Source of the DNA: a virus | Direction: 5' to 3' (one strand) | DNA: 30,872 bases | IMG/VR virus record: IMGVR_UViG_3300031673_000323 | Span: 1-30,872 of that record | Part shown: piece after piece, positions 1 to 29,124 of the stretch | How positions within the stretch are numbered: the first letter of the stretch is position 1 | Layout of the letters: each line of letters begins with the position of its first letter | The notes under the pieces: model-generated | Seen by the model: only the letters and a program-made list of their open reading frames with translations | Databases searched by the model: none | Told to the model about the DNA's origin: nothing | Position numbers and translations under genes: made by a program

Positions 1-2008
1 CATTCCCCATTGGCATTCCCCCCTGCGGAGGTTGCATCATCATCTCAGCACTTTCCTCCGGGTATGGAAGTTGGTCGGGAAAATCCCCCATCTGAATTTT
101 ATGTTCCTTTATATGCTCATTAAACGCGTCCCGGACTTTTACGGATGCGGCGAAGAATTCCGGCCTTGCCACAAACGCCTGCAATATCATCAAATGTACG
201 CGGTGCAAATCGTTCCCACTAATGATAACCTTCCCCGGGGTCTCCCCATCCCCAAACAAAAGAAGATTCTCAAGCATCGCCCTTCGATAATTCTGCCAAC
301 CAATCTCATCCCCCACAGGAATATCAAGCCCCCTCTTCCTGACCGCCCAGTTGAACTCATCGAGCGTAATCCTGCCATCCTTCAAAGCCTCTTTCAATTC
401 CGCCTTTTGTTGCTCCTTTGATATGGGAACTTCGCTGGCAATCGTAATCGAAACCTCATCAGGAAACGGAATCGCATTTTGGCTCAGAGTCAATGTCCCC
501 GACTCGGCGTCCAGAACTATACCGGCAAGCGAATCGTCCAAATTGGAAATACGTACAACCTTCTGATCTGACCACGTATCCTTGAGTATTCTGAGCAAAG
601 CCCTGTATATTCCAGCCATCCCCACAGCAATATTCTTGGCCGACGGTGACAAAGGAATCCCCGAAACCTCATACAAAAATCCCAACCCTACGGAGGAATC
701 CACCCGCCCGGGGGCGTTGCCACTCATCATCTCCGAGGGCTGATTGGCTTGTTTATCCATTAAGGCAACCGCAAGTTCGACGGCCTTTAATTGTGGGGCG
801 GTCATCTTCGCCGGTTCAACAGTGAAGGGTTTCTGGTCGGGAACCGCGTAATCCGGCTCAAACCGCATTACCTTCAATCCATCTTGTCCCCTTTGGGCAA
901 GCGGGGGTGTCCCGAGCGAATTAGGCCACATTACCAGCCCATATAAATCAAAATCCGACACCGATTGAAACACACTGGATAGAGCCAACTCAGTCTCATT
1001 ATTAAGGGGAATCAGTTGGTCTACGTAACTCCTGCCCCAGAAGCTCCCTATCGGCACATCCCGAACAATCTGTGTCGGCATATAATACTTGCTTTGGGTA
1101 TGGTCAAACCGGTATAACTCAGCAAACTTAGTAATCCCCATATAAATCCGGTACTCACCCAAGAACCCGTCACTGGTCTCCGTCCAAGTCTCAACCAGTC
1201 CCGTCACAGGAACCATCTTCTCATCTTTCGGTTTCTTGGCCCGACCACTCAATGACTCGAAATCCTTGGTCGGGGATTGTACGAAGAATCCCCCGCCAGT
1301 CGAAGTATATGAAACCATCCCCTCCCCGAGAGAATCAAGATCAACCGGCATATCCCCGGATGGCAGCTTAACATCGTCAGCCCCCTTATAGAGCTTACTA
1401 CCCTTGCCCGGGGTTATAGCCAGATTTTTAATCCAATCGACGGGGACATACCTAACCCTCATCAACCCCCTGACATCCTGTGGCCCGGAAATATCACTCG
1501 GAATCGGAAATATCTCCCAAGGTGGAATCACTTCGAGACCATGTGAATCCGGCCCCTCAATCCAAAGTCCCACCCCCACCGTGCCATACATAAGAAACGG
1601 TGGGATAAAATCCAGAACGAACTTCTTAATCTTATCCTCAGTAATAGAATCACTCAAAACCACCTGAGCGACACTCGCCTTTTTCAACCCATCGAGACTA
1701 ATATCCCCCTTCGGCCTTGCAATCGGGCTAAGGTCAAGGGACAGCAGCCTTCCAAGCTGGCTCACATATTTGGCTATAATTCCCTCATACCTAAACTTGA
1801 GAATCCCGGACTCACTGAGATACCCAATCGTAACCGTCCCATTGGTGTAATCAAGGTGGGAGAATTCCCGTATCCCCTGTAGATAGTACGATGCAATCAA
1901 CCACCGGATTACCTGTGGGTTTCTCTTGCCCTTCCCCCGCAGAATCAGGTTGGCAATTACATCCTCGCCTTGCTTTTTGTCTTGGGGCAACCTGTAAGTG
2001 TATGACAT
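1..2008 (-). CDS. Phage portal protein, C-terminus cut by window edge
   Basis: An open frame of 669 codons reads leftward from an ATG at 2008 and leaves the window without a stop. The ATG follows an AGGAACGGTAGT-type ribosome site. The product starts MSYTYRLPQDKKQGEDVI and has portal-like features: an N-terminal region reading NLILRGKGKRNPQVIRWLIA, a central stretch GSFWGRSYVDQLIPLNNETE and a later segment QPSEMMSGNAPGRVDSS. These resemble portal proteins, which form the dodecameric ring at the capsid vertex through which DNA is packaged. It lies downstream of the large terminase on the same strand, the usual order. The last visible codons are MMQPPQGGMPMGN, where PPQ is encoded by one copy of the dispersed CTGCGGAGG motif. 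The family call rests on recalled similarity and gene order; the exact portal subfamily is not determined. Confidence 0.75.
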   Translation of the reverse strand, partial: MSYTYRLPQDKKQGEDVIANLILRGKGKRNPQVIRWLIASYYLQGIREFSHLDYTNGTVTIGYLSESGILKFRYEGIIAKYVSQLGRLLSLDLSPIARPKGDISLDGLKKASVAQVVLSDSITEDKIKKFVLDFIPPFLMYGTVGVGLWIEGPDSHGLEVIPPWEIFPIPSDISGPQDVRGLMRVRYVPVDWIKNLAITPGKGSKLYKGADDVKLPSGDMPVDLDSLGEGMVSYTSTGGGFFVQSPTKDFESLSGRAKKPKDEKMVPVTGLVETWTETSDGFLGEYRIYMGITKFAELYRFDHTQSKYYMPTQIVRDVPIGSFWGRSYVDQLIPLNNETELALSSVFQSVSDFDLYGLVMWPNSLGTPPLAQRGQDGLKVMRFEPDYAVPDQKPFTVEPAKMTAPQLKAVELAVALMDKQANQPSEMMSGNAPGRVDSSVGLGFLYEVSGIPLSPSAKNIAVGMAGIYRALLRILKDTWSDQKVVRISNLDDSLAGIVLDAESGTLTLSQNAIPFPDEVSITIASEVPISKEQQKAELKEALKDGRITLDEFNWAVRKRGLDIPVGDEIGWQNYRRAMLENLLLFGDGETPGKVIISGNDLHRVHLMILQAFVARPEFFAASVKVRDAFNEHIKEHKIQMGDFPDQLPYPEESAEMMMQPPQGGMPMGN

Positions 2009-2684: not shown

Positions 2685-4544
2685 TCATCTAATAATTTTT
2701 GGCCTCAATCTTTCTATTCTCCTCTGCGGAGGCTGTATATTTCTTTTCCTCCTCTGCTGGCTCATAATATTCATCATCTCATCCGTAATCTCTGCGGAGG
2801 CCACCCCCGACAATACCGGCATCCCCTCTATCTCCGGCAAGTTCTTGATAATCCGCTCTTTCAACCCGGGCTTGCCCTGTTCCCTGCGGAACTTACTGCC
2901 CTTGGTCTTAATCACGTACTTGTGCATGGCAAGCGTATCAAGGGCATCATCATGCTGGAGCAAGGCCAAATCCATCGTGAAATCCATCGCCTGAGCATAT
3001 ACCTGATTGTACGGCCACTGCTCCTGTAAATGAGCCGGTAGCTTAACGCGACCCGAGTTGAATCGCCACTCCAGAGCCGACGATATTCTTTGTGCCTTGG
3101 ACTCCTTGGACGGATACGTCACGGGAAAAACTCGCCCCCTCCACTTGTCCCCCCGCATATCAGTCTGCTCATTGATATACTCTTGTGCAGCCTCCGCAAA
3201 CGCCTTCTGTATCGAAACCGCCTCTATTCCGAGAACCCGTACCTGCCATATCAAACCCGTCTCGTAAATCATCCTCATAAGGGTATCGTCTTTTGCCCGA
3301 CCGAGCCACCCGTACAGAAGCCACATCGTCCCGAGCGTATCGAACCCGCAAACCTCTATACAGGAATAATCATGGTAGGATGTAAGTCCCGAGGCGTAGT
3401 CGAACAGAAGCACCTTGAACATCGGCCCCACAAGCTCATTGTATTTCCGTTCCATCTCCTTGTATGTCCGGTGGTCATTATCCTCCCCGAATATCCGCTC
3501 ATTCCACTTGACTATATTGGTATTGGTAAGAGGTGCAGACCAATTAAATTCCCCTTCGACGGTGTACTCATTTTTACGTGGGTCAACCAACAAAATTCTA
3601 TCTTGAGCGGAGATGGGGTCATTACAGAATTCAGATGCGAATGCGGATGGCCCTATTCGTTTCCTCTCTGATTCGAGATATTCCTGTGACCACATTTCCG
3701 GCCAAATCAGGTGACATTTTGTTTCATCTTCCTCATCATAAGCGATGGCCCGAAGGTTTACCCTATTCCAAAAATCAAATCTTGGGTCATCCCCCTCTAT
3801 TGCTCGGTACAAGAAGGCTCGTCTATCTATCAGTGTTCCAATCCAGAACATACATGAACCGGGTTTTAACATAGGGAGCATCTTTTTGAACAATATCACT
3901 TCAAATCTCTCGATGAGCACCAGTCGAGAAGTTTCAGATTGATTTTCGGGGTCATTCTCCGGGTCATCTAAGATGAGAAGTCGGGGGCGTCCACCTCTCA
4001 TCTTGCCCATCACGCTCCCCCCCGAGATAGTTGAACCGTTTGAAAACTGTAGATACTCGTGATTCCAAGTAGCAGACCCCCGAATGGGTTTCATTGTCCC
4101 AAAATCGGATAAAATCAATTCGTTTCTTGTTAATTGATCCATTAACGTATCGAAACGAGGCTGTTTCATTTTATCGGTAGAAAAAAACAGGGATATGTCG
4201 AAACCAGGTCTTGTCAACGCCAATAGCAGTGTAATTTCGAGGTCGAGTACCGTAGATTTGGCCGAACCCCTCGGTGCTCCCCAAGCATTAAGGGCATACG
4301 ATCCGAGGGCATAGACCATCTCCGAATGAAAATCAGGAGATTCCAGAAAACCATCCTTATAGAATATGGCTTCTCGTGTTTGTGCCAGATACAATCGCCG
4401 AAACAAATCCCAGGCCAGCACGAGCTTGTGCGGCGTCGAATGGTCGCACAGCACACTCATTCTCGCCTGATATTGACCCTCCGCAGAAAGCCCGGCATAA
4501 TCTTTGGGCAGTGGATATAGAGGGTGTGGGCGGTAGATTATCAA
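2685..4544 (-). CDS. terL: Terminase large subunit
   Basis: ATPase-nuclease motor that packages genomic DNA into the prohead. With the TTG start at 4544 the protein is 619 aa. A Walker A motif (GAPRGSAKST) lies near residues 89-98 and a Walker B (RLLILDDPEND) near 188-198. The C-terminal RNase H-like nuclease has an Asp in VLLFDYASG (about 382) and a late acidic motif in LLQHDDALDTLAM. The frame extends upstream to an ATG at 4619, but that stretch overlaps the previous gene. AGAGGA lies 6 nt before a TTG that overlaps the previous stop as TTGA, which suggests translational coupling and the shorter protein. Three CTGCGGAGG copies lie inside the gene (4478, 2792, 2724), giving SAEG, ASAE and PPQ in different frames. 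Confidence 0.88.
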   Translation of the reverse strand: MIIYRPHPLYPLPKDYAGLSAEGQYQARMSVLCDHSTPHKLVLAWDLFRRLYLAQTREAIFYKDGFLESPDFHSEMVYALGSYALNAWGAPRGSAKSTVLDLEITLLLALTRPGFDISLFFSTDKMKQPRFDTLMDQLTRNELILSDFGTMKPIRGSATWNHEYLQFSNGSTISGGSVMGKMRGGRPRLLILDDPENDPENQSETSRLVLIERFEVILFKKMLPMLKPGSCMFWIGTLIDRRAFLYRAIEGDDPRFDFWNRVNLRAIAYDEEDETKCHLIWPEMWSQEYLESERKRIGPSAFASEFCNDPISAQDRILLVDPRKNEYTVEGEFNWSAPLTNTNIVKWNERIFGEDNDHRTYKEMERKYNELVGPMFKVLLFDYASGLTSYHDYSCIEVCGFDTLGTMWLLYGWLGRAKDDTLMRMIYETGLIWQVRVLGIEAVSIQKAFAEAAQEYINEQTDMRGDKWRGRVFPVTYPSKESKAQRISSALEWRFNSGRVKLPAHLQEQWPYNQVYAQAMDFTMDLALLQHDDALDTLAMHKYVIKTKGSKFRREQGKPGLKERIIKNLPEIEGMPVLSGVASAEITDEMMNIMSQQRRKRNIQPPQRRIERLRPKIIR

Positions 4545-5410
4545 GACAATTCCTCTGGGTTTGTTAGCATCCGAATCACATCGAACAGGGCAATCGTGGT
4601 CAGCACCCCCGCGGTCCATTCGACATTGTCGATACTCGTATTCATTACGAGCTTGAGTGACGGCCAGCAGGTCTCGATGTAGCCAGGCATCAGAATTGTT
4701 TCATAGATAATCTTGTAGACATCGACATTGTTTGGCAAGTCCCACGTTGTCAAGCGGGGAATCACGCTCGGAACCCGGCTAATCCAGCAATGGTGCATCC
4801 GTACCCAATCGGTGGAGAACTCAGAACTATGTACATATTCGATGAGCCTCCGCAGGTTTATACCTCCATCGTTAAGCTCTGACATAAGTTCTTCGACGGA
4901 ATAGACACTTTTCCCCGGGTCTGCAATGGCGTCAAGGGTTTCCTCATTGGGTTCTTCCCCCTGCGGAGGTTGGTCTTTCTGTACTGCTGCCGTCTTTACA
5001 TCTGCGGCAATCTTTTTCAATTCATCTTCTGATAACTTATCCCCCTGCGGAGGTTGTTCCAGATACTCCGGGGTAAAGCCTTTGGTCGCAGGTTGGGGGT
5101 CGGTGCTGGATACAGGGATTGTCTCCGGGCTGTTGCTCTCCGCCGATTCGCTCATTGTCATTGTCTCCGGCTGCATCAGAATTGTCGGGGTCTCGTGGTT
5201 TTTGAATTCGTCCGATTCCAATATCGATTCCAGTTTTTTCCTTGTCAGGGGTATTTCTTCCACCTGCGGAGGAATCTGGCCGAGTCTCGTCTGTGCCGAC
5301 AAGTCCCCGAGAGCCTGTGTCACTATCTCCTCCTGAGTCGGTTCCACTTTCATTGCCCTCTGACTCAGGGCTTCCTCCAACGTCGGTTTCTTCTTGTTCT
5401 CGACTGTCAT
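4541..5410 (-). CDS. Unknown protein preceding terminase, acidic linker plus conserved C-terminus
   Basis: A 289-codon frame beginning MTVENKKKPTLEEALSQ. The N-terminal 170 residues are acidic, Pro/Gln/Ser-rich and probably disordered, with three repeat-encoded PPQ segments (IPPQVEE, EQPPQGDK, DQPPQGEE). The C-terminal 110 residues are folded-looking and aromatic-rich (MHHCWISRVPSVIPRLTTWD, ending NPEELS). The start has a good site (GAGGAG, 7 nt spacing) but lies 374 bp inside the preceding gene in another frame. The stop overlaps the terminase TTG start. Position next to terL suggests a packaging or small-terminase-like role, an inference without family support. Confidence 0.65.
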   Translation of the reverse strand: MTVENKKKPTLEEALSQRAMKVEPTQEEIVTQALGDLSAQTRLGQIPPQVEEIPLTRKKLESILESDEFKNHETPTILMQPETMTMSESAESNSPETIPVSSTDPQPATKGFTPEYLEQPPQGDKLSEDELKKIAADVKTAAVQKDQPPQGEEPNEETLDAIADPGKSVYSVEELMSELNDGGINLRRLIEYVHSSEFSTDWVRMHHCWISRVPSVIPRLTTWDLPNNVDVYKIIYETILMPGYIETCWPSLKLVMNTSIDNVEWTAGVLTTIALFDVIRMLTNPEELS

Positions 5411-6192: not shown

Positions 6193-6352
6193 CTCTCCTC
6201 CTCAAAATCCTCAAACATTTTTTGCACGTCACCTCCGCAGGGTTGTTCTTTATATAGGCACGGCGACCACTGTTCCAGCACGCCTTGAACCCACAGAGGG
6301 CTTTGTGCAGGATGTGTCGATACCCCTGCCCGTTTTCCATGTGAGTTTTCAT
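6161..6352 (-). CDS. Small Cys-containing protein (63 aa)
   Basis: 63 codons starting MKTHMENGQGYRHILHKALC and carrying AEVTCKKCLRILRRRDG near the C-terminus. The CxxC with basic surroundings is typical of small phage proteins that bind zinc or nucleic acid. The end overlaps the downstream gene by 32 bp. The ribosome site is weak; an ATG 4 codons further in is an alternative start. One CTGCGGAGG copy (6232) encodes the PAEV before the CxxC. Confidence 0.6.
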   Translation of the reverse strand: MKTHMENGQGYRHILHKALCGFKACWNSGRRAYIKNNPAEVTCKKCLRILRRRDGKIKTSKNP

Positions 6353-6939: not shown

Positions 6940-7196
6940 TTTTCATTCTCCTTTAAGTCGTTAATAACCCTGCGGAGGTCTTCATTTTCCTCTGCAAGTA
7001 AATCGTATTTCTCTTGTAATTCCCGGGACTTGTCCACCGTTCTCTGGTATACCCTCCGTAATGTTTCATACTTAAAAACAAAGTCCAGAAGTCTTTTAGT
7101 AACTTTGTGCCCATACCAGGGAGAACTCGGATCATCGAGGGTTTCTTTGACGGTATCTAAAATAAAGTCAAAAGCTGATTTATCAAATTTTGCCAT
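6936..7196 (-). CDS. Coiled-coil protein of unknown function (86 aa)
   Basis: 86 codons from an ATG at 7196 behind GGGGGATAAGAAA. The N-terminal half (FDKSAFDFILDTVKETLDDP) precedes a heptad-like coiled coil (SRELQEKYDLLAEENEDLRR, about residues 55-80). One dispersed 9-mer (6970) encodes the LRR. No family is recognised. Confidence 0.65.
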   Translation of the reverse strand: MAKFDKSAFDFILDTVKETLDDPSSPWYGHKVTKRLLDFVFKYETLRRVYQRTVDKSRELQEKYDLLAEENEDLRRVINDLKENEK

Positions 7197-7870: not shown

Positions 7871-7898
7871 ATTATACCATATCCGCCGGATTTTCCAA
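7871..7898 (-). promoter_or_regulatory. Leftward sigma70-like promoter
   Basis: Minus strand: TTGGAA (7898-7893), 16 bp, TATAAT (7876-7871) with TGG before the -10. It drives the 7813 to 2508 gene set. A CTGCGGAGG copy (7912-7920) lies between it and the divergent promoter at 7936. Confidence 0.75.
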
Positions 7899-7935
7899 CC
7901 CCTGTTTTGAACCTCCGCAGGGTTGGATGCTGGGG

Positions 7936-7963
7936 TTGGAATAAATCGGGATTGTGGTATAAT
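7936..7963 (+). promoter_or_regulatory. Rightward promoter for the ATPase gene
   Basis: Plus strand: TTGGAA (7936), 16 bp, TATAAT (7958) with GTGG before the -10. The -35 elements of this promoter and the leftward one at 7871 are only 37 bp apart and share the GGGTTGGAA context, so one regulator could act on both. The leader to the start at 8088 is about 120 nt and contains a GC-rich patch (GCCTTGCGGGGGGC) and one TTGGCGGGG copy at 8063. Confidence 0.75.
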
Positions 7964-8087
7964 GTAGTTATATGGGGGAGGGTAATCCTGTCATCTTAAA
8001 CAAGCCTTGCGGGGGGCTGGCACAAACCCTAATTACCTCTCTCATCGTCAGCCCCCACTATTTTGGCGGGGAAGAAAGTAGTAATTG

Positions 8088-10693: not shown

Positions 10694-10754
10694 CATAGGG
10701 AATAGATAATGTCATCCTCCGCAAGTCTTTTATCTACTGCGGAGGTTCAACTAC

Positions 10755-10904
10755 TCATTCATCAACTAAAGCCATATCCCAGGCTATCGCACACTGGCAG
10801 CATAGCCGTATCACTGTTCCGTCCTTCCTTGTTCTTTCCTCTACTGCCTCCCATTCACAAATCGGGTTCTTACAATAAATTGTCTCGCCATTATCATTTT
10901 CCAT
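10755..10904 (-). CDS. Small zinc-ribbon-like protein (49 aa)
   Basis: 49 codons from an ATG at 10904 behind the repeated leader GGGGATTTGGTG. Starts MENDNGETIYCKNPICEWEA and later has LCCQCAIAWDM. The pairs CxxxxC and CCxC are spaced like a small zinc knuckle. No family is recognised. One CTGCGGAGG copy lies 10 bp beyond its stop. Confidence 0.6.
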   Translation of the reverse strand: MENDNGETIYCKNPICEWEAVEERTRKDGTVIRLCCQCAIAWDMALVDE

Positions 10905-10938
10905 CACCAAATCCCCTAAAAATTCTCTCCTTTAATTT

Positions 10939-11160
10939 TTACTTTTCTCGTTGACTATACGGAATAGCCTGATTGATCCTATCCATCATTCCGTCTCGAA
11001 ACTGCCTTAATATATCCCTACCGGTACACGGCCACCAGCAAGTCAACCCATGCTTGAATTCCATCTCTGGATTCGCTTTCGCCAATAGTATTCCCCTGAT
11101 ATATGCTCCCAGGGGAACACGCTTTTCTATCGCTGGCAAATAAATATATCGCTTACTCAT
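10939..11160 (-). CDS. Unknown phage protein with CWWPCTGRD motif (73 aa)
   Basis: 73 codons from an ATG at 11160 behind GGGGATTTGGTT. Starts MSKRYIYLPAIEKRVPLGAY, with the segment GLTCWWPCTGRDILRQFRDG in the middle. The CWWPCTGR.I.RQFR pattern is familiar from many small phage proteins of unknown function, so the gene is probably conserved. The frame is open to 11235, but that part overlaps the hairpins upstream. Confidence 0.7.
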   Translation of the reverse strand: MSKRYIYLPAIEKRVPLGAYIRGILLAKANPEMEFKHGLTCWWPCTGRDILRQFRDGMMDRINQAIPYSQREK

Positions 11161-11189
11161 AACCAAATCCCCTTTAAAATAATATTGAA

Positions 11190-11270
11190 GGATGCTCGGC
11201 GTTTTGTGATGGGATGGGCGATCCCCACCGAGCATCCGAATCTGGAGGTTAACCGGCTAACAACCTCCAG
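11190..11270 (-). other. Two adjacent intercistronic hairpins
   Basis: First: GGATGCTCGG (11190) pairs with CCGAGCATCC (11228), with an inner GGGAT/ATCCC stem. Second: CTGGAGGTT (11242) pairs with AACCTCCAG (11262), which spans the stop codon of the 42-aa gene. Neither has a good T-run, so they are more likely RNA-processing, stability or translation-control structures than terminators. Confidence 0.5.
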
Positions 11271-11377
11271 TATTCTTTTATCAATTCAATCGCCTCCGTT
11301 CCTGTTATCATTCCCGATTCGACTCCATTCACTATCGCACTACAAAACCCATCAACATCTAACATCATAATGTCCAT
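11249..11377 (-). CDS. Small protein of unknown function (42 aa)
   Basis: 42 codons from an ATG at 11377 behind GGGGGGATTTGGTA. The sequence is MDIMMLDVDGFCSAIVNGVE at the start and AIELIKEYWRLLAG at the end. Its length, leader and helix-like composition support a real gene. No family recognised. Confidence 0.55.
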   Translation of the reverse strand: MDIMMLDVDGFCSAIVNGVESGMITGTEAIELIKEYWRLLAG

Positions 11378-11402
11378 TACCAAATCCCCCCTCAGTTCTA
11401 TT

Positions 11403-11684
11403 TTAATTCAAATCCCAAATTGGCCATAAATGCTTGCAATCATCAGGCAAAAAATCACTAACGATTGCTGTTAATTCAGTACTATCAATATCAACAAACT
11501 TACCATCTAATGTAATATCGAATAGTCCATTTAGATCGACAGCAATCCAAAGCCTTTTACCTGATATTTGTGAACATGGCCAAGGATTGTTTACTCGGTG
11601 TGCCCAAGTATAAGTCTCGTTATCATCTAAATTAAGATGATATAAAACAATATTACCATCGTGTTCTTCTGTCTTAATCTTCAT
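11403..11684 (-). CDS. Unknown protein (93 aa)
   Basis: 93 codons from an ATG at 11684 behind GGGGATTTGGTA. Acidic, beta-rich sequence (MKIKTEEHDGNIVLYHLNLD; KRLWIAVDLNGLFDITLDG). It shares the leader with the neighbouring small genes. No family recognised. Confidence 0.6.
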   Translation of the reverse strand: MKIKTEEHDGNIVLYHLNLDDNETYTWAHRVNNPWPCSQISGKRLWIAVDLNGLFDITLDGKFVDIDSTELTAIVSDFLPDDCKHLWPIWDLN

Positions 11685-11704
11685 TACCAAATCCCCTAAA
11701 AACC

Positions 11705-17372: not shown

Positions 17373-17943
17373 TTTTTTCCTCCTCCGCAGGCTGTATTAT
17401 TCGGGGCTGCATCAACTCTTGATGGAGCATACTCATCGTATTGAACATTATGGCACAGAGGACATCCTGTATATCTTCCTGCCCGGAATCATCGTAAATA
17501 TCAAGTCCCTCCATCAATAGCCACAAAGTAAAGAAGTGCCGCCCAAGTCCATCGAAAGATCGCCGCATAGGAATCCCCTGTTTCCAGTTGTCGAACTCCC
17601 GCATTGAACCGTCAGCTTGCTTACGGTGCTTGGCAAGATACTGGAGATACCTGCGGAGGACTACGGAAGAAAGACCCCTGACATAAGAAAGTCTCCCATC
17701 TTCGGAAGTCCGAGTCGCCCCCGAGTCAAATGTCTGTATTCCCGCCGCGTCTTTGGGATTAGTTTCCTTGCCCCCCGCAAGGGTTATCCCCCTAAGATAT
17801 TCCTCGGACTTGTTGGTATACAGGTTTCCAAAACGAACTTGATAAGGGAAAGCACTCGACGGAGCAATCCAGATGATTTTCCCGATTTGTCCCTTATATG
17901 CCCCATTTATGCTTATTACTGTATCCCCCCTTTTGAATTTCAT
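17356..17943 (-). CDS. dATP/dGTP diphosphohydrolase-like protein (DUF5664) with KOW-like N-terminus
   Basis: 195 aa. Residues 1-55 form a small KOW/SH3-like barrel (KRGDTVISINGAYKGQIGKI). Residues 70-147 match the DUF5664 pattern: FDSGATRTSEDGRLSY, then LSSVVLRRYLQYLAKHRKQA, DNWKQGIP and RRSFDGLGRHFFTLWLLMEG. Members are annotated as dATP/dGTP diphosphohydrolases; one branch (MazZ) supplies dGMP for 2-aminoadenine synthesis. It is the upstream partner of the HD hydrolase. The KOW-like extension is not a usual part of the family as recalled, so the fusion is notable. Two dispersed-motif copies (17382, 17651) lie inside. Confidence 0.75.
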   Translation of the reverse strand: MKFKRGDTVISINGAYKGQIGKIIWIAPSSAFPYQVRFGNLYTNKSEEYLRGITLAGGKETNPKDAAGIQTFDSGATRTSEDGRLSYVRGLSSVVLRRYLQYLAKHRKQADGSMREFDNWKQGIPMRRSFDGLGRHFFTLWLLMEGLDIYDDSGQEDIQDVLCAIMFNTMSMLHQELMQPRIIQPAEEEKSAASG

Positions 17944-18721: not shown

Positions 18722-19276
18722 TTAGGCCAATACTTCTCCTGCCGACTCAGTTGTCCCTTCGACCACCGGCCCGCCGCCGTCATCCCCCTGCGGAGGTTCG
18801 TCCGGCAAATCCTCAACGGCCTCGGCCTGAATTACTTCTTGGATGTAGCAGTTTGTGTAGTCTTGCCCGTTCTTGGGGCTTCTGGTGGTCACTACTTTGA
18901 CTCGTAGAATCTTGCCGATTGATTGTGTAAATACCGCATTGATGTCATCAAACGAAACAAGTTCGCCGCCATTCAAGGCCCTGGCTTGCCCCTTCATTAT
19001 TCCGGGGGCGTTGGTATTAAAGAACCCCAAGGCGAAATCCTGCCCGAGTAGCTCGGGGCCGCCGTCTCCCGCTTCGATCCTGACGACGGGTTTCCACCAG
19101 AACATCGGGTTGTCTGGGTCTTTCTTGGTTGAGACCCCTTTGCTGCATTTGATGACCGAGACAGTGTACTCTCCGTCATCCGGCATCCAGTTACTGAATT
19201 CCTCGGCATCATCGTACTGCTGTTTCAGGTTGGCATTGTGGGCCGCCAACAAGCGTTCAAAATCCATGTCACTCAT
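18722..19276 (-). CDS. Probable single-stranded-DNA-binding protein, DUF669-like
   Basis: 184 aa from an ATG at 19276 behind GGGGGAAAAAAC. The region about 25-150 looks like an OB fold with alternating strands (DGEYTVSVIKCSKGVS; FWWKPVVRIEAG; KILRVKVVTTRSPKNGQDYT). The C-terminal 40 residues are acidic and disordered (EDLPDEPPQGDDGGGPVVEG), as in phage SSB-type proteins. Its neighbours, a RecA-fold ATPase and a RecB/Cas4-like nuclease, are typical partners of DUF669 proteins. The precise family is a recollection, not a search result. PPQG in the tail comes from a dispersed motif copy. Confidence 0.6.
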   Translation of the reverse strand: MSDMDFERLLAAHNANLKQQYDDAEEFSNWMPDDGEYTVSVIKCSKGVSTKKDPDNPMFWWKPVVRIEAGDGGPELLGQDFALGFFNTNAPGIMKGQARALNGGELVSFDDINAVFTQSIGKILRVKVVTTRSPKNGQDYTNCYIQEVIQAEAVEDLPDEPPQGDDGGGPVVEGTTESAGEVLA

Positions 19277-19511: not shown

Positions 19512-20450
19512 CTATTGATATTTTTTCTTGGCGGCTGCAACTGCCGCGTTATACTTCGTCCTGAATACTTCCCATCCTCCAACAAGAGGCACTTCAAATT
19601 TCGTTTCCATATCCGGTACGCCCCGCGACTTGCCTTCGCCCCGATTAGTAGTCAGGCAATCGACGTAATAAGTCTTCCGCACTTCCGTCCCCGAAGGAAC
19701 TTCAATTACCTGACCGGATGGCAATTTCTTCTTCTCTTTCAACTCAATCGTCTGGTTCAGGCAATAGACCGTAATCTGGAAGTCCGCCTTGTTCTTGATT
19801 TTCTGTGCGATGCTTGGGATAACGGCCTCTCTTAGTTTGGTCTCCTCTTTTTTGGAAACCGGATTGGTTCGAGTTACAACTTTCTGATGGCCGACGATGG
19901 CCCAAGTATAACCACCCTGCTCCAAGTCCATTACTTTCGACCAGACTCGTTGCAGGACAAGATTATAACCGTGACCTTGTGAGCCAAAATCAAAGACATC
20001 CTCGATGTTCTTTTCTTCCTCGATTTGATGCTTAATCATGTCAACATATTCTTCGATACCATCGAAAGAAACTCGTCCCCAATGGCGTTTGCCGTTCTTG
20101 GAATCCTCAACCAGCTTCACAATCACTTTGTCGAGATGTTCATAGTTCTTAATGTGAATCCGTATCGAATTCGTACCAACGACTCCGTCAGCCCCATTCT
20201 CGAAATCCAGAATGATATTGTTAGGGATACTTGCATCGAAAGTGGTCTTGCCCTCGTTATACGGTCCCACAATATATAGTCGCAGAGCCTCCGCAAGTTT
20301 GGGATTGTACCCAGTCACCGCCCCGAGTGCCGCCCAATCTGTAGGGACAATTGGAACGGTATTGGGTTTTACTGGAACGACTTTGTTAATTGCGTCCTCG
20401 ACTTGTTGCAATTGCTCTTTTATAATCGGATTACCTTGAGGCTGTGTCAT
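19512..20450 (-). CDS. RecA-fold ATPase, Sak4/AAA_24-like recombinase
   Basis: 312 aa from an ATG at 20450 with AGGAGG upstream. Walker A is GPYNEGKT (62-69); IILDFENG follows, then WAIVGHQKVV as a sensor-like motif. This is the outline of the phage AAA_24 group, including Sak4-type proteins that act on single-stranded DNA with a phage SSB. The C-terminus is Ala/Lys-rich (YNAAVAAAKKKYQ). The neighbouring SSB-like and nuclease genes fit a recombination module. Confidence 0.75.
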   Translation of the reverse strand: MTQPQGNPIIKEQLQQVEDAINKVVPVKPNTVPIVPTDWAALGAVTGYNPKLAEALRLYIVGPYNEGKTTFDASIPNNIILDFENGADGVVGTNSIRIHIKNYEHLDKVIVKLVEDSKNGKRHWGRVSFDGIEEYVDMIKHQIEEEKNIEDVFDFGSQGHGYNLVLQRVWSKVMDLEQGGYTWAIVGHQKVVTRTNPVSKKEETKLREAVIPSIAQKIKNKADFQITVYCLNQTIELKEKKKLPSGQVIEVPSGTEVRKTYYVDCLTTNRGEGKSRGVPDMETKFEVPLVGGWEVFRTKYNAAVAAAKKKYQ

Positions 20451-21208: not shown

Positions 21209-21437
21209 CTTTTCTCCCCCTAAAAATTTGATTAGTATTGGTCGGGACTTTATATGTTCCCTTGGGTTTCCCCAAAAACTTCTTCTTGTAAATCTCCCAT
21301 TGACTATCCGCGATTTTATGACAGAGAGAGCAATAGACACATCCGCCTCTTTTTGTTCGAGGATGCGTTCCGTATGTCCACCAATGAAATCCCAACGTCA
21401 GGATTTTACAAAGTAATATCTTCATTATCTGTTTCAT
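21186..21437 (-). CDS. Small basic Cys-containing protein (83 aa)
   Basis: 83 codons from an ATG at 21437. Its ribosome site is the CTGCGGAGG copy at 21447-21455, 9 nt away. MKQIMKILLCKILTLGFHWW at the start, then GGCVYCSLCHKIADSQWEIY with CxxCxxC, which could bind metal. The gene overlaps both neighbours (31 and 23 bp). Confidence 0.6.
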   Translation of the reverse strand: MKQIMKILLCKILTLGFHWWTYGTHPRTKRGGCVYCSLCHKIADSQWEIYKKKFLGKPKGTYKVPTNTNQIFRGRKDVATRKK

Positions 21438-22476
21438 CTTCTTGTACCTCCGCAGGTTTAATTTGGTATTTGGTTTCAAATAGACTGTCCCACTGGTTCG
21501 GGTCGGTCTCGCACAGGTCGTGGTATATACACCGTTTCTGATATGCAAAGCAGGCCGACCTTGTAACGTCCCGATGATAATATGCGGGATGGATAGGATA
21601 TCCCTCAAGAATCCGCATTTTTTCAAGTGCATTTCGCAATTCGTAGGGGATCAACGGTTCGGTAAACAGGATCGCCTTCGAGTCGATTGCCTTGGTGTTT
21701 CGTTTTCCCTCCAACTCCGCCTTGACCTCGTAGGTTCGATACCAATCCTTAACCCTGCGGAGGTAAGCATCTTCGACCGAGCATTTCCATTCCTTAGCGT
21801 TCTTCTCGTCGGTCTTGCACAGCTTAATCCCCGGCGTGATGATGCCATCGAGAATGAATCCCCTCGCAGTTGGGTGATCATCCTTCCATTTCCCAACCAA
21901 ATAATCCTCTGTAAGTATCCGATATAACCTTGCCTGTATTGACCACGCTAAACCCCCGAACAGAACTGCCAAAGGCCGCCCCGTACTTTTGTGGTCTCGA
22001 ATCCAGAGATTGCCATCTTTCTCATCTAAAATGAGTTTATCTATCGTCCCCTCAAGGGTCAGGCCATCGAAGTCCATCGTGTGTTTTATCTCCGTGCCGA
22101 TGACCTTAAACTGCGGAGGCTGTGGAAATTTCTCCCAGAAGATGTGAGCCATGACCTCGGCCTTCTTATAAAGGCTTGTCAGCATAATGGTAAGTCGCAG
22201 GGCATTGCCGTCGAGGTCTTCCCCCCTATCGATCATTGCCATCAAGTCACACTGTTGCCCTCGTACCCACGCCTTCGTTTTCTCCTCCTCACCGGGGCCA
22301 TATTGCTGCAAACGGTGATATATCTTACCAAGTGTGGCGGCATCCTTTTTCTCTATCCCCCGCAGTCGCACGCCCATTCGATGCCGACAGAACCAGTACC
22401 TCTCACAAGCCAAGGCACACGCGATTGAGGATTGCCTGCATGTAACTGGTTGAGGTACTATCTCATCAAATTTCAT
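21406..22476 (-). CDS. Cas4/RecB-like PD-(D/E)XK nuclease
   Basis: 356 aa from an ATG at 22476 preceded by GCGGAGACTAATC. GKIYH (50-54) resembles the RecB-family GxxxH element. GTIDK (Asp 146) and RDHKST (Asp 161, Lys 163) give the D...DxK nuclease centre. Cys lie near the N-terminus (IACALACERYWFC) and in the C-terminal CFAYQKRCIYHDLC, the arrangement that holds an iron-sulfur cluster in Cas4 and AddB-type nucleases. The enzyme probably resects DNA ends for recombination with the ATPase and SSB-like proteins. Two dispersed-motif copies (21755, 22111) lie inside. Confidence 0.8.
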   Translation of the reverse strand: MKFDEIVPQPVTCRQSSIACALACERYWFCRHRMGVRLRGIEKKDAATLGKIYHRLQQYGPGEEEKTKAWVRGQQCDLMAMIDRGEDLDGNALRLTIMLTSLYKKAEVMAHIFWEKFPQPPQFKVIGTEIKHTMDFDGLTLEGTIDKLILDEKDGNLWIRDHKSTGRPLAVLFGGLAWSIQARLYRILTEDYLVGKWKDDHPTARGFILDGIITPGIKLCKTDEKNAKEWKCSVEDAYLRRVKDWYRTYEVKAELEGKRNTKAIDSKAILFTEPLIPYELRNALEKMRILEGYPIHPAYYHRDVTRSACFAYQKRCIYHDLCETDPNQWDSLFETKYQIKPAEVQEDETDNEDITL

Positions 22477-22828
22477 GATTAGTCTCCGCAAATCGGACTG
22501 CTTCTTGGAGGATTACGATAAGGTTCTTCGCACCAGAGATGTCCAATATATCCCCCGGACAAGACTCCACGACACCGAATCCCCCCATAGGTTCTCCACG
22601 TTTTGCCCCATGTAAGGTGGAAATTCGGATTGGGAACATTTCACTATCCGCACCAACACTAACCCGGATATTGTCTACCCGCCCCTCAAAGTTTTTCGGG
22701 GAACTCTCGGCTATACTAATAGCTGCGGTAAGGTCGGAGTGTATTTTCTTGGCAGCACCGATGGTGTATTTCTCTGTCGCGGTTTTCATCTCTATAGATA
22801 CGGTTCTGTTTTCGGCTTCTATCTTCAT
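22466..22828 (-). CDS. Unknown protein (120 aa)
   Basis: 120 codons from an ATG at 22828 behind GGGGGAAGAAAA. MKIEAENRTVSIEMKTATEK at the start. Alternating charged strands followed by a helix (IVILQEAVRFAETNHEI). The stop overlaps the nuclease start by 11 bp. No family recognised. Confidence 0.6.
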   Translation of the reverse strand: MKIEAENRTVSIEMKTATEKYTIGAAKKIHSDLTAAISIAESSPKNFEGRVDNIRVSVGADSEMFPIRISTLHGAKRGEPMGGFGVVESCPGDILDISGAKNLIVILQEAVRFAETNHEI

Positions 22829-22839: not shown

Positions 22840-23154
22840 CTAACTTTGTGTGTATGGAAATCTCGGGCGGAATATGATATACGGTTCCGCCGAGAATATG
22901 TGAGCAATCGCATTTAGCTCGTTCAAAGGTAACGGAAAGCCTCCGACATAAGATTTCAGATTACTACCTTGCAGGGTATTCACTACCCATTCCGGGTCTG
23001 CACATAACCGCACGACCAGATCATCCCACGTCATCTGAAAGTCATCGAGCAATCGTTCAATGGCTGTGATTAGCTCGATATGAAATCGCTCATAAGAAGC
23101 CGCTTTGAGCCTCCGCAGGACTTCTTCACTTGTCCCCTTGTTTGCGTCGATCAT
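22840..23154 (-). CDS. Unknown protein, possibly HTH-like (104 aa)
   Basis: 104 codons from an ATG at 23154 with GGGAG upstream. MIDANKGTSEEVLRRLKAAS at the start. The middle (TAIERLLDDFQMTWDDLVVR) followed by LPLNELNAIAHIF resembles Xre-type helix-turn-helix proteins in which a sequence like MTWDDLVVRLCADPEWV begins the fold. Not certain. The start overlaps the preceding stop. Confidence 0.55.
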   Translation of the reverse strand: MIDANKGTSEEVLRRLKAASYERFHIELITAIERLLDDFQMTWDDLVVRLCADPEWVVNTLQGSNLKSYVGGFPLPLNELNAIAHIFSAEPYIIFRPRFPYTQS

Positions 23155-24115: not shown

Positions 24116-24207
24116 GCGTCCTGCGGAGGTCGTAAGAAGGGGAACGGCAGTCAGATTCTTTATAAAGTAATGTTTTAATCTCGTCGTCCCCTGTTCCATC
24201 TATCATT

Positions 24208-24235
24208 ATTATACCACAAATCATTTATTTTCCAA
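24208..24235 (-). promoter_or_regulatory. Leftward sigma70-like promoter
   Basis: Minus strand: TTGGAA (24235-24230), 16 bp, TATAAT (24213-24208), GTGG before the -10. The -35 lies inside the last codons of the DUF4326 gene and directly beside a CTGCGGAGG copy (24239-24247). It opens the 24045 to 15722 unit. Confidence 0.75.
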
Positions 24236-24551
24236 CCCCCTCCGCAGGGGAAATATCTTTTGTTTTTATCCTTTTTACATAGTTATCCCCATGACATCTA
24301 CGTGGGGGACAGTTTCCCGGACAGCCTAATCGTTTTCCTGTGAGGTATTTTTGAATTTCTCTTAAAGACGGTGGCTTGCGTCCGTCCGGGGCTTCAATCT
24401 TCCCCTCCAACCACAAGTCATGTTTGTCGCATACCCCATCCCGTGTTCCATGTATCCCCAATACAAATGGATTTCCCCATCGTCCGGGGCGTCCTATCCA
24501 TATATCATAAGGATCAGTAATTCTTACTACTGTTGTTTTATTCTCAGCCAT
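24225..24551 (-). CDS. DUF4326-like protein
   Basis: 108 aa from an ATG at 24551 behind GGAGGAGAAAA. The DUF4326 pattern is clear: VVRITDPYDIWIGRPGRWGN followed by PFVLG, and near the C-terminus GKRLGCPGNCPPRRCHGDNY. The family is common in phages and bacteria; the GC..C...CHG motif suggests metal or nucleotide binding, and its role is unknown. The longer frame to 24602 lies in the preceding gene and is not used. Confidence 0.8.
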   Translation of the reverse strand: MAENKTTVVRITDPYDIWIGRPGRWGNPFVLGIHGTRDGVCDKHDLWLEGKIEAPDGRKPPSLREIQKYLTGKRLGCPGNCPPRRCHGDNYVKRIKTKDISPAEGVGK

Positions 24552-25131
24552 TTTTCTCCTCCAGCAGCACAGGCGGTACATCAAATGTCTCCTGCAACGC
24601 ACAGGCGACCATCAGGTGTAGCATCAGCGTCCCCACCTTCCGCCGCGTGTCCGAATTCCTTGCCTTCCAGGGGATAAACAACAGCCGCAGATTATACTTC
24701 GCAATAGCCAGTCCCAGCCGATGGCATACGAGTTCAGGTTGTTTGACCAAGGCATTGCTTGATAATAGTTCCCCTGCGGAGGCTTCCACCAGAAGGTATG
24801 GATATTTGCAGCCGGTCGATAGTCGCCTGAACGCCTTGGCCTGCCTGATACGGTCGAGGCTTTCGTTCATGTTCTTGTAAATTTCCAACTGGCTTGCCTT
24901 CCGTTCGATAACACACTGGTCGGGATATTCTTTCAGGCGGTAGTCACCGAAGTCCAGTTTGGTTTTTTCCTGTTTGACGGCGATAGGCAGGGACAAATGC
25001 GTTAGCTCGGGATGTCCGATCATAAGAGTGTCGGGAAAGAGTAGCGGTATCTGTTCGCGGGTGTCAATTTGTACCGTGATGATGTTTGGGATTTTATATC
25101 GATAATATACGTCAGTTTTTCTTGGCAGCAT
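24544..25131 (-). CDS. ERCC4-type (XPF/Mus81-like) nuclease
   Basis: 195 aa. The catalytic motifs occur in order: VQIDTREQIPLLFP (about 20-33), KLDFGDYRL (58-66) and CVIERKAS (73-80), matching the DxRE...GDY...ERK signature. In phages such proteins cut branched DNA during recombination or replication. The start lies inside the end of the methyltransferase gene. One dispersed-motif copy (24774) gives ASAG. Confidence 0.8.
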   Translation of the reverse strand: MLPRKTDVYYRYKIPNIITVQIDTREQIPLLFPDTLMIGHPELTHLSLPIAVKQEKTKLDFGDYRLKEYPDQCVIERKASQLEIYKNMNESLDRIRQAKAFRRLSTGCKYPYLLVEASAGELLSSNALVKQPELVCHRLGLAIAKYNLRLLFIPWKARNSDTRRKVGTLMLHLMVACALQETFDVPPVLLEEKNG

Positions 25132-26482
25132 TTGCTTTTACCCTTCCCCTTATTATCTCACAGTATGCCGGTTCCTTCTCGACTATAACACAATCCCTTC
25201 CGGTGTTCATGCAGGCCAGAGCAGTAGTGCCACTGCCCCCGAACGGGTCCAGGACTGGCCCGCCTTCGGGCGTCCTTGTCAAACGGCAAAGATACTCCAT
25301 GAGCTTTAGAGGCTTGACTGTGGGGTGATTGTTCTGCTGATATTGTTTTGGTCGTGGTTTACCATCTGGATATGTGCCTGCAATACCAGCCATTTTCTCA
25401 GATTTCATTGAATCTTTAATCTCCATCCCTTCCAGCCCCGCGTTGCGTTCCGACCTTGAGGCTTTGGCACAATACAGGAATCTATTGGGCAAATCTAATG
25501 CACTTCCTTCCAAGAGGCATTCATCGCATAGATACACTCCGGAGCCAACTTCAAGATTGCCGTGTTCTTCAACATATCCACAGAAAAAACAAGGTTCAGG
25601 TTCTAATATCTTAAAAAAGCGGGATGCACCGCCGTATCCTTCATAAGTGTTCGGTGCATTAACCTCACCAGAACAATTTTCAAATCCACTATATGTTTCT
25701 GCTCTGTTGGCTGGAGTTATCCTTTTAGTTGTTTTTCTTGAACCACTAATCCCGCTCTGCTCATCCAGCATAGCCGCCGATTCTTCATCGAGGATTAAGT
25801 TGGCAGGCCAGCGACCTTTTTTTGCAACCCACGGTTCGGTTGTTACCGCTTTTGATACCTGTCCAAATGTTTTACTCGCATCACATAATCCTGTACTTCT
25901 GGATGGTATGTTATCAGCAGTACCTATCCTCCCCCCATCAATCCACAATCCCGCCACTCCATACTTCTCGGCGTTCTGTGCAAACGTGCCGTCTAAGGGC
26001 TTCATGGCGACTATGATAGGCTCCCAGGCAGGCTTAAATGATACATTATATCCATTCCATTTTTTCTCTAATCTCCACCAAAATCTTCTTTCTTCTATAT
26101 ATTCCCTGCCCATTATGAAGTTTGAAATACACCGACCTCTCCATCCATGCTTTTTAATCTGGTATTGCCTCGGTATATCATGTCCTTTCGGGAATCCGCT
26201 GCCGTAGAGCCACATCATACAGTCCCGAATCTGCCAGCCCGCGTCCTCGATAGCACAGGTCAATCGGTGATATGTCCGAGTACCACCAAATACTAAAGCA
26301 AATGCCCCGGGCTTGCAAACCCGCAGGAACTCTTTCCAGAACCGCACGCCCGGTATTCCCCTGTCCCAATCCTTGCCCATAAATTTAAGGCCATACGGAC
26401 AATCAGTTATAAGAGAATCGAAATGATTTACCGGAAACTTTGGAGTAACATCCAAACAATCCCCCCCATATAGTTTTATCAT
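25112..26482 (-). CDS. DNA N6-adenine/N4-cytosine methyltransferase with zinc insertion
   Basis: 456 aa from an ATG at 26482. Its ribosome site is the CTGCGGAGG copy at 26490-26498. The catalytic motif is DCPYG (27-31; usual DPPY) and the AdoMet-binding motif near the end is DPFGGSGTT (412-420), the order of beta-class enzymes. FFCGYVEEHGNLEVGSGVYL, then CDEC, between them is an inserted zinc-binding segment. No restriction gene is adjacent, so it is an orphan enzyme that could protect phage DNA or mark replication. Its target is unknown. Confidence 0.82.
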   Translation of the reverse strand: MIKLYGGDCLDVTPKFPVNHFDSLITDCPYGLKFMGKDWDRGIPGVRFWKEFLRVCKPGAFALVFGGTRTYHRLTCAIEDAGWQIRDCMMWLYGSGFPKGHDIPRQYQIKKHGWRGRCISNFIMGREYIEERRFWWRLEKKWNGYNVSFKPAWEPIIVAMKPLDGTFAQNAEKYGVAGLWIDGGRIGTADNIPSRSTGLCDASKTFGQVSKAVTTEPWVAKKGRWPANLILDEESAAMLDEQSGISGSRKTTKRITPANRAETYSGFENCSGEVNAPNTYEGYGGASRFFKILEPEPCFFCGYVEEHGNLEVGSGVYLCDECLLEGSALDLPNRFLYCAKASRSERNAGLEGMEIKDSMKSEKMAGIAGTYPDGKPRPKQYQQNNHPTVKPLKLMEYLCRLTRTPEGGPVLDPFGGSGTTALACMNTGRDCVIVEKEPAYCEIIRGRVKANAAKKN

Positions 26483-29124
26483 TGTTTAGCCTCCGCAGTG
26501 TAATCCTTCTTTTCAAATTTCCAAGGAATAGTTCGTCCGACCCAATTCTCGAAAACCCGTAGCAACGGGGGATGGGTCATTGCCTCTCCGACTATCTCAT
26601 CGACGTCCTTCTCTTCGCCGGGGAATATGTCCGCAAAAATAGCGTCGTAGATATTCAGGCAAATCAAACTGCGGAGGTGATATTTCAAAAGGTGTAGTAT
26701 GATTTTATACTGGGCCGATTCGGTTATCTGGGCACACGGGGCTTGGTGCAGGAAATTACAAACCTCCGCCGCCTGTCCCGCAATGTTCTCTTGTCCGATG
26801 CCGAAAGTCCTCGACCACCCCGTAGGTAGTACCAAATAACCCTGCTGTGCAGCCAAGTCAATCATCCTGTCCTGCCAATGTTTATAAATGTGATGCTTGG
26901 CATACCACTTGTCGATTGAGTCTTGACAGAAACTCAAATCAACCTCAACCTCGGCGTCCTCTAAAGCTGTACTTTGAAATGCCGTAGCACCGCCTCTAAA
27001 TAGTACGAGGAAATTCAGTGTCTTGCCGAGCTTGTACATATCCGATTTTTTCCAGCCCGGATCGGCAGGGTCAGCCTCAGGAAAGATTGTCAAGGCTGTT
27101 CGGGTATGTATATTCTCTCCTTCTTTCTGGTACGCCTCCATCAACAGGGGGTCGCCGGAAAGTAATGCCGCCATCCGCAAATGATCCTGGCTCACATCGT
27201 ACTCTACGAGCTTTCCCCCTCGGAATCTTGAGCAGGAACACTCTCGAATACTGGCTGGTTCTGTTTGTCGGGCTGGTTTTCGACAAGAGAATCTTCCTTG
27301 GATTTGCCCCCCTGACTTTTCATCGCTTCTTCCACCCCTTTCGGCGTAAGCTGGTACAGGATACCAATTAGGGAAAACAAGGCCAATTCGTCCAGAACGC
27401 AGGACAATTCCTTTCCGTCTATCTTCAAGGATAGGCTTTGTATATGTAGAGACAATTTTAGCCCGTTCCTTATACTCTTGGAAATCGGTAACGACAGCAT
27501 AATATGGACTGACTGTTCGTAAGTGTTGTTTGATGAGGTTGACATTTTCGACTCCTATTGAAATTTTCTTTGTTTTCGGCGACCACTCTACACGGGGGTC
27601 ACTCATTAAGCCAGCCTCCGCAACACAGTCGAGCATCAACTGACGAAGGGGGGCGTCACTCCCCTTCCCCGCCAGCTTGATTCCATGTTTTTCTTCTGCG
27701 GAGGTCATCAACTCATTGCATCGCTTTTGTTCCTGCACATGGTACTTCTGCAACTTGGGAATGTCGAAAGTACTTCCATTTTTCTCCAAGTCAAGCGTGT
27801 CCCAAATAATCATATTTCGTACCCACGCACAGGTGACACTCAGCTTAGGAGAGTCCTTTCCGTATTGGTCGATAATCCTTTGCCGCAGGTCTCTCTTCAA
27901 AGCAATAGTCGCCCCGGAATCAAAGCAGTTATAATAATGTAAGTCCTTATCTCGTGGAGACTTAGCAGTACCAGATTTGGCCGTGACTTTCGCCATAGAA
28001 TAATCGGCGATACCGTACAAGGTAGATAATTCCTTCAACCCCTTCTCCGGTTGTTGTTCATATAACAGGAAAGACCATATCATTGTATCATCAACTATCA
28101 ACCTACGTGGGTCAATCCAATATGGAATCTCCTGATCCCCACAGAATTTCAGGTAGAGCAAATCAAATTTAATATTTTGGCCGATGCAAACGATTCTCTC
28201 CCGTGACATCCGGCGAAACCATCGGCGGATTATTTTGCGGTGCTTCTTGAGATTGAAAATATACACCGCCGTCCTCAATTTCGTCCCCTCATACCACCCG
28301 AAGCTAATCGTTACTATCTGATACTTGAACGGTACGCCGTCTATCTCCTTCGATTTGATAGGATGAAAAACAGTTTGCTCAACCCCCGCGAGAATACCGT
28401 AGGTCTCGATGTCAAGGCTAACCTCCGCAGGTAAAGTTTCGGGCACTTCGACCCCAAGCTCCGGCTCTATCTTGAGATTGTTTGGGATGAACTCGCCTTT
28501 GAGATAGCGAAGCACAAGGGAGAAATGAGTTTGTACCGCCCGGACTTTCCCCGGCTGTCTGGTTGGGTGCAACATGGCAGGGTGGTATGTGGCAAAGACA
28601 ACCGGCTCAGGTGTGCCGAAGAACGGACTCGGTTTGCCCTGCTTTTTGAGCGTTTCGTTGAGTGAACTGATATTCAAGACGGAATAGCAAGCCTTAGCCC
28701 CCAGAGCAAATATGATTACCTCTTTATAACGCCCCTGCAATTTGGCAATATCCTCCTGCAAATAGCCTCGGCAGGCCCGTATCTGTGATTGAGATATATC
28801 TCCCCCCTGCGGAGGTTTACACCGGCAGGCGTTGGCAAAATATACATCGGCGTACTCGTTCAATCTCGAAGCCATTACGAACTGTTCCAGAAGATTGCCG
28901 GTATATCCCAAGAATATTCGACCGTTGGGGTAAGCAGTTTTCCCTCCGAATCCCTTCGTTCCTTTGTCTTCGTTATGCCCCGGTGACTGTCCAACAAAAA
29001 GCAAGGCCCGCCTCGATGATGGAATCATGCCATCAATCATAGTCCTCGACGGCAGGCCCGGATTCATGGCCGACTGATACAACGGACACAACTGACAATC
29101 CGAATGTCTCTCGAATTCAATCAT
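26479..29124 (-). CDS. Uracil-DNA glycosylase (family 4)/DNA polymerase A fusion
   Basis: 881 aa from an ATG at 29124. Residues 1-210 are a family-4 uracil-DNA glycosylase: CQLC (10, 13), GQSPG (45-49), Cys 100-102 and 118 for an iron-sulfur cluster, and YHPAMLHP (180-187). Residues 235-412 form a DnaQ-like 3'-5' exonuclease (LDIET, Asp 238/Glu 240; NIKFD, Asp 321; YNCFD, Asp 402). The polymerase follows with motif A DVSQDHLR (643), motif B KLGKTLNF (Lys 701) and motif C IYDAIF (Asp 827), where the usual HDE reads YDA. A frame to 29229 exists, but its first 35 codons lie in a different small gene. It is the likely replicative polymerase. Confidence 0.88.
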   Translation of the reverse strand: MIEFERHSDCQLCPLYQSAMNPGLPSRTMIDGMIPSSRRALLFVGQSPGHNEDKGTKGFGGKTAYPNGRIFLGYTGNLLEQFVMASRLNEYADVYFANACRCKPPQGGDISQSQIRACRGYLQEDIAKLQGRYKEVIIFALGAKACYSVLNISSLNETLKKQGKPSPFFGTPEPVVFATYHPAMLHPTRQPGKVRAVQTHFSLVLRYLKGEFIPNNLKIEPELGVEVPETLPAEVSLDIETYGILAGVEQTVFHPIKSKEIDGVPFKYQIVTISFGWYEGTKLRTAVYIFNLKKHRKIIRRWFRRMSRERIVCIGQNIKFDLLYLKFCGDQEIPYWIDPRRLIVDDTMIWSFLLYEQQPEKGLKELSTLYGIADYSMAKVTAKSGTAKSPRDKDLHYYNCFDSGATIALKRDLRQRIIDQYGKDSPKLSVTCAWVRNMIIWDTLDLEKNGSTFDIPKLQKYHVQEQKRCNELMTSAEEKHGIKLAGKGSDAPLRQLMLDCVAEAGLMSDPRVEWSPKTKKISIGVENVNLIKQHLRTVSPYYAVVTDFQEYKERAKIVSTYTKPILEDRRKGIVLRSGRIGLVFPNWYPVPAYAERGGRSDEKSGGQIQGRFSCRKPARQTEPASIRECSCSRFRGGKLVEYDVSQDHLRMAALLSGDPLLMEAYQKEGENIHTRTALTIFPEADPADPGWKKSDMYKLGKTLNFLVLFRGGATAFQSTALEDAEVEVDLSFCQDSIDKWYAKHHIYKHWQDRMIDLAAQQGYLVLPTGWSRTFGIGQENIAGQAAEVCNFLHQAPCAQITESAQYKIILHLLKYHLRSLICLNIYDAIFADIFPGEEKDVDEIVGEAMTHPPLLRVFENWVGRTIPWKFEKKDYTAEAKQ

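Follow-up and report, generated by a model that had tools for sequence, protein, structure and literature searches.

A strand-ordered nine-base word in uncultured phages, with possible parallels to Chi sites and DNA uptake sequences

The Chi site of the Escherichia coli RecBCD system (GCTGGTGG) is a short, non-palindromic word that is G-rich on one strand and dispersed in both directions along the DNA. It acts with a polarity, the enzyme being stopped only when it comes from the 3' side of Chi. The HIP1 word of cyanobacteria (GCGATCGC) is a highly iterated palindrome that is tolerated within coding sequence. Only a few bacterial groups are known to have Chi sites or uptake sequences, and both kinds of word opened the way to a recombination or DNA-uptake machine. 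The uptake sequences DUS of Neisseria and USS of Pasteurellaceae are 9–12 bp long, occur at 0.4–1 per kb and are found within genes and in the arms of terminators (PMC6776037, PMC2346458). Phages that lysogenise Pasteurellaceae accumulate USS, up to ~750 per Mb, and large, likely lytic Pasteurellaceae phages are USS-poor (PMC6776037). As counted here, the host USS (AAGTGCGGT) is the top 9-mer of Haemophilus phage HP1, with 17 copies in 32 kb, and phages HP2, Aaphi23 and S1249 likewise carry it as their top 9-mer. Chi is also enriched in a phage, with 50 copies of the octamer in P1.

The present analysis concerns a word of this general kind in the window, a stretch of 30,872 nucleotides of viral DNA from IMG/VR. 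It contains 31 exact copies of CTGCGGAGG (20 plus-strand and 11 minus-strand), which span positions 23 to 28815, against an expectation of 0.17–0.36 under Markov models of orders 0 to 3. The original prediction had described an enrichment of about 130-fold; the enrichment is confirmed, and every coordinate given for it is right. The word is the most numerous 9-mer in the window and, in the Markov-background count that had been proposed for all 9-mers, ranks first under orders 2–4. The concern that other 9-mers might be equally frequent does not apply, as the other abundant ones (CGATGCCGC and its overlaps) belong to one tandem Gly-rich coding repeat at 29401–29733. This repeat has units of 9, 21, 27, 42 and 54 bp and lies inside a predicted protein (29338–30150) that also matches DUF7666.

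The word is asymmetric, its reverse complement being CCTCCGCAG, so that it forms no perfect palindrome, and its reversed form is absent from the window. An extended form, CCTGCGGAGGT, occurs 14 times there. One-base variants are present, as had been predicted, and the most frequent of them are mainly transitions. Taken over 347 sites in the window and its relatives, the core is CTGCGGAG, followed by G in 85% of cases and preceded by pyrimidines on its 5' side. Beyond the core the flanks vary from phage to phage and look like dialects. One 52-kb phage contig (G311, loci L342–L344) favours CC after the core: its copies extend to CTGCGGAGGCC, and of 32 copies 27 and 23 have C at the first and second following positions, where the window prefers TT.

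The copies occupy all frames and both strands. Position within genes and sense or antisense orientation have no strong bias, and intergenic copies amount to about twice their share. Two plus-strand copies (2724–2732 and 2792–2800) lie antisense within the TerL gene. Further plus-strand copies are placed at 23–31, 5045–5053, 5264–5272, 6970–6978, 10737–10745, 13642–13650, 16768–16776, 18788–18796, 22111–22119 and 24121–24129, and minus-strand copies at 4478–4486, 6232–6240 and 23110–23118. The copy-free stretches to which the original prediction drew attention do exist but are ordinary, the coefficient of variation of the gaps being 0.91 compared with 0.95 under random placement. Two copies, at 12284–12292 (minus) and 12307–12315 (plus), form the first and second arms of a hairpin at 12277–12315, which was rightly called a terminator: it is a good one for the minus strand, with a folding energy of -20.8 kcal/mol, a z score of -3.4 and 7 Ts. 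Minus-strand copies at 7912–7920 and 24239–24247 adjoin promoter-like repeats. Sigma-70-like promoter blocks (TTGAC...TATAAT) are repeated at 2445–2484, 7871–7982, 15507–15690, 24189–24239 and 30616–30664, with up to 40–51 bp of similar sequence between distant places. A repeated leader, AGGGGATTTGGTGATG (reverse complement CATCACCAAATCCCCT), stands ahead of several small genes and is found in the window at 10897–11950 and 29227–29261.

Codon usage does not produce these counts. In the 28 larger genes of the window 20 copies are observed, compared with a mean of 0.87 after synonymous-codon shuffling, and across six genomes the genes hold 20–39 copies compared with 0.7–1.1 after the shuffle, an excess of ~20–45 fold. 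The history of individual sites was traced in the gene for DNA polymerase A (PolA; 26479–29229, minus strand), the product of which has an N-terminal domain of the uracil-DNA-glycosylase superfamily and the polymerase gene being conserved throughout the family of phages described below. A codon alignment of six phages was used, in which the window and L012 have 68% protein identity. Between these two, 2 of 4 word sites of the window are kept, compared with 4% of other 9-mers. The copy at 26669–26677 (plus) is kept in L011, L012 and L013, those at 27696–27704 (plus) and 28422–28430 (minus) in L011, and that at 28807–28815 (plus) in L011, L012, L013 and L014. Sites at new positions in the polymerase genes of other phages were gained by substitution, with no gaps, in all frames and on both strands, and can alter residues, reading FLK in one phage and LRR in another. 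Among the sites compared, the sole exception with a gap is the minus-strand copy at 26490–26498, which lies in a C-terminal extension. The comparison of orthologues for clean insertions, which had been put forward with the idea of a small mobile sequence, revealed in-place substitution instead, and that idea is rejected for the sites compared, save the one at 26490. Judged from this alignment, the word sites in PolA are the outcome of selection with turnover and not of insertion. The copies fall in all frames and on both strands, exceed the synonymous shuffle by ~20-fold and turn over by substitution, and this supports the original prediction of a word that acts at the DNA level and is tolerated in proteins.

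No close DNA relative of the window was found among 50,697 annotated phage records, in which protein matches were remote. Relatives in IMG/VR were found by way of PolA, a single 16-mer and patterns of word pairs. They include nine longer contigs (G018, G019, G020, G021, G309, G316, G313, G311 and G312) of 41–55% GC, which have genes in common with the window or one another at ~44–86% mean protein identity. In all nine the word is the top 9-mer (in an overlapping form in G020 and G311) at 0.4–1.1 per kb, G020 carrying mainly the 8-bp core, and the reversed word has few copies or none. With the window included, all ten members of the family are enriched, ~100–250 fold. Seven protein clusters are common to all six large relatives, the window among them: PolA, TerL, the protein at 2–2092, a PDDEXK_1 exonuclease of the RecB/AddB/Cas4 type (21406–22491, minus), an ERCC4-type nuclease (24544–25131, minus) and two more. 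A Sak4-like single-strand annealing protein for recombination (19512–20450, minus) is present in five of the six, and an N6/N4 DNA methyltransferase (25112–26482, minus) has homologues in three. For 75 larger proteins from six phages, the families found (with PHROGs, the 25 most frequent of 70) comprise neither an integrase nor a CI-type repressor, which is suggestive only, but makes the word phages appear lytic. At L009 (3407–5838) a terminase homologue spans ~500 bp more than that of the window, with 99% identity in the main part; the difference is possibly an inserted element or one of boundaries.

The word is also found in a second type of phage. Two contigs, G314 and G315, carry genes for a lambda gpE-type capsid (PF03864) and for a siphovirus tail, and no protein in common with the family of the window was detected. 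They hold 6 copies in 6.9 kb and 5 in 6.4 kb, respectively, and L389, whose capsid has 45% identity to those of both, holds 7 in 8 kb. Each of these three contigs was found through one close pair of copies, so that one pair per contig has to be discounted, and even then all three stand far above expectation. L348, in contrast, has just 2 copies in 20 kb although its capsid is 70% identical to that of G314, and hence the density of the word does not track capsid descent. The simplest reading is that both types of phage owe the word to a common host or to an unseen module that they have in common.

The main feature of the word, which the original prediction missed, is the ordering of its copies by direction. 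In the ten phages pooled, copies that face the same way repel each other over distances of up to ~1 kb. At separations below ~800 bp there are more outward-facing pairs (<- ->) than expected, and below 600 bp there are few inward-facing ones. Such outward-facing pairs in the window are 4847–4855 with 4961–4969, 17382–17390 with 17651–17659, 21447–21455 with 21755–21763 and 24239–24247 with 24774–24782, the first member of each being on the minus and the second on the plus strand. Under a circular-shift null, the alternation of strands is mostly accounted for by the regular spacing of each strand alone, whereas the outward excess and the inward shortage are not.

Most large relatives had been found by a pattern that requires a close outward pair, which biases pair statistics, and the ordering was therefore retested on contigs found without a pair search (the window, G018, G019, G020 and G021; 152 sites) and on the others with close pairs removed. 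In the contigs free of the pair search there are 49 like-oriented neighbours compared with 73.5 ± 5.8 (sd) expected, 54 same-direction pairs within 1 kb compared with 75, 47 outward pairs within 600 bp compared with 22–26, and 14 inward pairs, again compared with 22–26. In the pair-found contigs, after removal of all close outward pairs, 28 outward pairs remain compared with 13.5–16 expected and 22 same-direction pairs compared with 42; the deficit of inward pairs is not significant there. The gpE-type contigs retain 18 sites once the ascertained pairs are removed, too few to show ordering, and an earlier claim that the ordering was replicated in them is withdrawn. A palindrome cannot carry an ordering by strand, and the word is thus directional and not of the HIP1 kind. 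Of the suggestion of a signal like HIP1 or Chi, the ordering hence fits the Chi half and not the other.

The word is a real, selected and directional DNA signal in phages. Among possible mechanisms the best supported is that CTGCGGAG(G) works like a Chi site through a host helicase–nuclease, a reading that may be right but is advanced tentatively. It accommodates the observed enrichment, the spread over two types of phage, the gain of sites by substitution and the ordering by strand with its outward pairs. As inferred here, the recognising enzyme would be a helicase–nuclease, most likely of the RecBCD/AddAB type and belonging to the host, that resects DNA starting at breaks or free ends, and the word would stop or switch this enzyme from one side of approach only. 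If the polarity were that of Chi in E. coli, plus-strand copies would halt leftward resection and minus-strand copies rightward resection. An outward-facing pair would then bracket a short island, protected against resection from left and right alike, and an inward pair would spare nothing. Phages of such a host could maintain copies in both orientations, spaced fairly evenly, so that every fragment left by a break retains a stretch able to recombine. In the contigs free of the pair search, 0.53 of 2-kb pieces hold a protected island under the E. coli polarity compared with 0.42 in shifted controls (z 3.7) and 0.37 under the opposite polarity, a test that re-expresses the asymmetry of pairs and is no independent evidence. 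The conservation of the PDDEXK_1 exonuclease in all six large relatives, as a candidate partner of the word, was counted in favour of the Chi-like mechanism. The density of the word in G314, G315 and L389 and its near-absence from L348 point to control by the host or by something else other than the capsid. Against the Chi-like mechanism weigh the lack of a word-rich genome among the ~1,600 bacterial genomes counted in a thin sampling, the lack of an outward-pair excess among the Chi sites of P1, and a density about double that of those sites.

The main rival explanation, which on balance is somewhat unlikely, is that the word is an uptake sequence of the DUS/USS type belonging to a naturally competent host. 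Competent cells would take up phage DNA and recombine it into resident copies, and molecular drive would add the word to it, as in the phages of Pasteurellaceae. The USS-rich phages described above are a direct precedent for this idea, which also fits how dense the word is, how its copies arise by substitution, its presence in terminator arms and in unrelated phages, and its dialect-like flanks. The USS phages tested, however, lack the ordering by strand or have the opposite one. The word phages also look lytic, a suggestive point only, as do the large Pasteurellaceae phages that are poor in USS. Moreover, no competent, word-bearing host, and indeed no word-rich genome, was found among the ~1,600 bacterial genomes counted. 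These comprised 287 of Patescibacteria, 349 of Pseudomonadota, 250 of Burkholderiales, 221 of Chloroflexota, 175 of Verrucomicrobiota, 255 of Planctomycetota, 47 of one other phylum and 17 single genomes. In the surveys that followed the one of Patescibacteria, the count was of extended word forms with 10 or 12 bases; the sampling is thin, with Desulfobacterota, Acidobacteriota, Bacteroidota and others outside its systematic part. In a genome scan with the word pair, the matches listed were chance terminators, and none of those loci is word-rich. Of the single genomes, a Sulfurovum MAG (G003, locus L030) ranks top by the ratio of the word to its reversed form, with 37 copies to 2 in 1.7 Mb, yet is far below the phages.

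The absence of a word-rich host genome would be accounted for if the reader were encoded by the phage. The PDDEXK_1 exonuclease, perhaps together with Sak4 and an SbcC-like protein, would then degrade or resect DNA and be kept in check by the word, so that the phage's own DNA, unlike that of the host, is spared or recombined. The original prediction had likewise named a site for the Cas4/RecB-like nuclease as one possible role, and the exonuclease is a candidate for it. This is an unlikely reading, even with the exonuclease among just seven clusters present in all six large relatives and the word kept across phages of 41–55% GC. The gpE-type contigs, which are partial genomes, are dense in the word without detected homology to the family and would need the same reader; to our knowledge it is not established that phage exonucleases are checked by a sequence in this manner. 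Some other directional DNA-binding role, in host chromosome organisation, in the priming of DNA synthesis or as a mark for defence or anti-defence, seems quite unlikely. The ordering in itself speaks only for directionality and a range of ~1 kb, which such a role would share, but equal use of the strands and the lack of a strong link to gene direction or position argue against roles tied to transcription or to the replication fork. That the word arises as a side effect of codon choice, ribosome binding, a mobile element or a methyltransferase is most improbable. The GGAGG of the copy at 26490 can indeed double as a ribosome-binding site for the methyltransferase gene, but start sites use motifs of the AGGAG/AAGGA type and the word lies mostly elsewhere, whilst the synonymous shuffle and the lack of gaps at nearly all polymerase sites compared tell against codons and mobility. 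The methyltransferase, raised in the original prediction as an orphan enzyme with the word as its target, is missing from three of the six large relatives, and the word-rich G311 has no PF01555 match; as a general cause it is not supported.

More broadly, a new directional word, read by a nuclease or by an uptake machine, may have shaped the genomes of unrelated phages, and in the larger, apparently lytic family the repeated outward pairs would act as protected islands. This wider proposal is possible, though it is held more loosely than the Chi-like mechanism itself. None of the titles listed in a literature search for the word was relevant. The word points to a further DNA-processing machine in uncultured bacteria from many metagenomes, and is usable as a tag for assigning hosts to these phages and perhaps to other mobile DNA. 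The outward pairing yields a prediction on the direction in which the reader travels. If the Chi-like role is true, it would show how phages with no detected anti-nuclease protein live with, or make use of, an end-resecting nuclease of the host.

Set against the known systems, the word resembles HIP1 in its iteration within coding sequence but differs in being asymmetric and ordered by strand. It is like DUS and USS in length, in its placement in genes and terminator arms and, at 0.4–1.1 per kb in both orientations, in its density of about one per kb, although its sequence is unrelated and its phages appear lytic. Like Chi it is an over-represented, short, asymmetric word, G-rich on one strand, dispersed in both directions and enriched in phages; its sequence is different, and at one copy per kb it is about twice as dense as Chi in P1. 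The Chi sites of P1 have the same repulsion between same-direction copies (11 pairs compared with 17.6 expected, p 0.008). In the USS phages, a comparison of three to five phages only, like-oriented neighbours are as expected (32 compared with 31.6), unlike the alternation of the word, and the uptake words of Haemophilus and Aggregatibacter phages have an excess of same-direction pairs within 1 kb (25 compared with 16.9), opposite to the word. The ordering is therefore nearer to that of Chi than to that of uptake words. P1 has no excess of outward pairs (8 compared with 6.6 expected), and we know of no description of a genome-wide outward-pair architecture for Chi or uptake sequences. It is this excess of outward-facing pairs, seen neither in the Chi sites of P1 nor in the uptake words of the USS phages, that sets the word apart from both.
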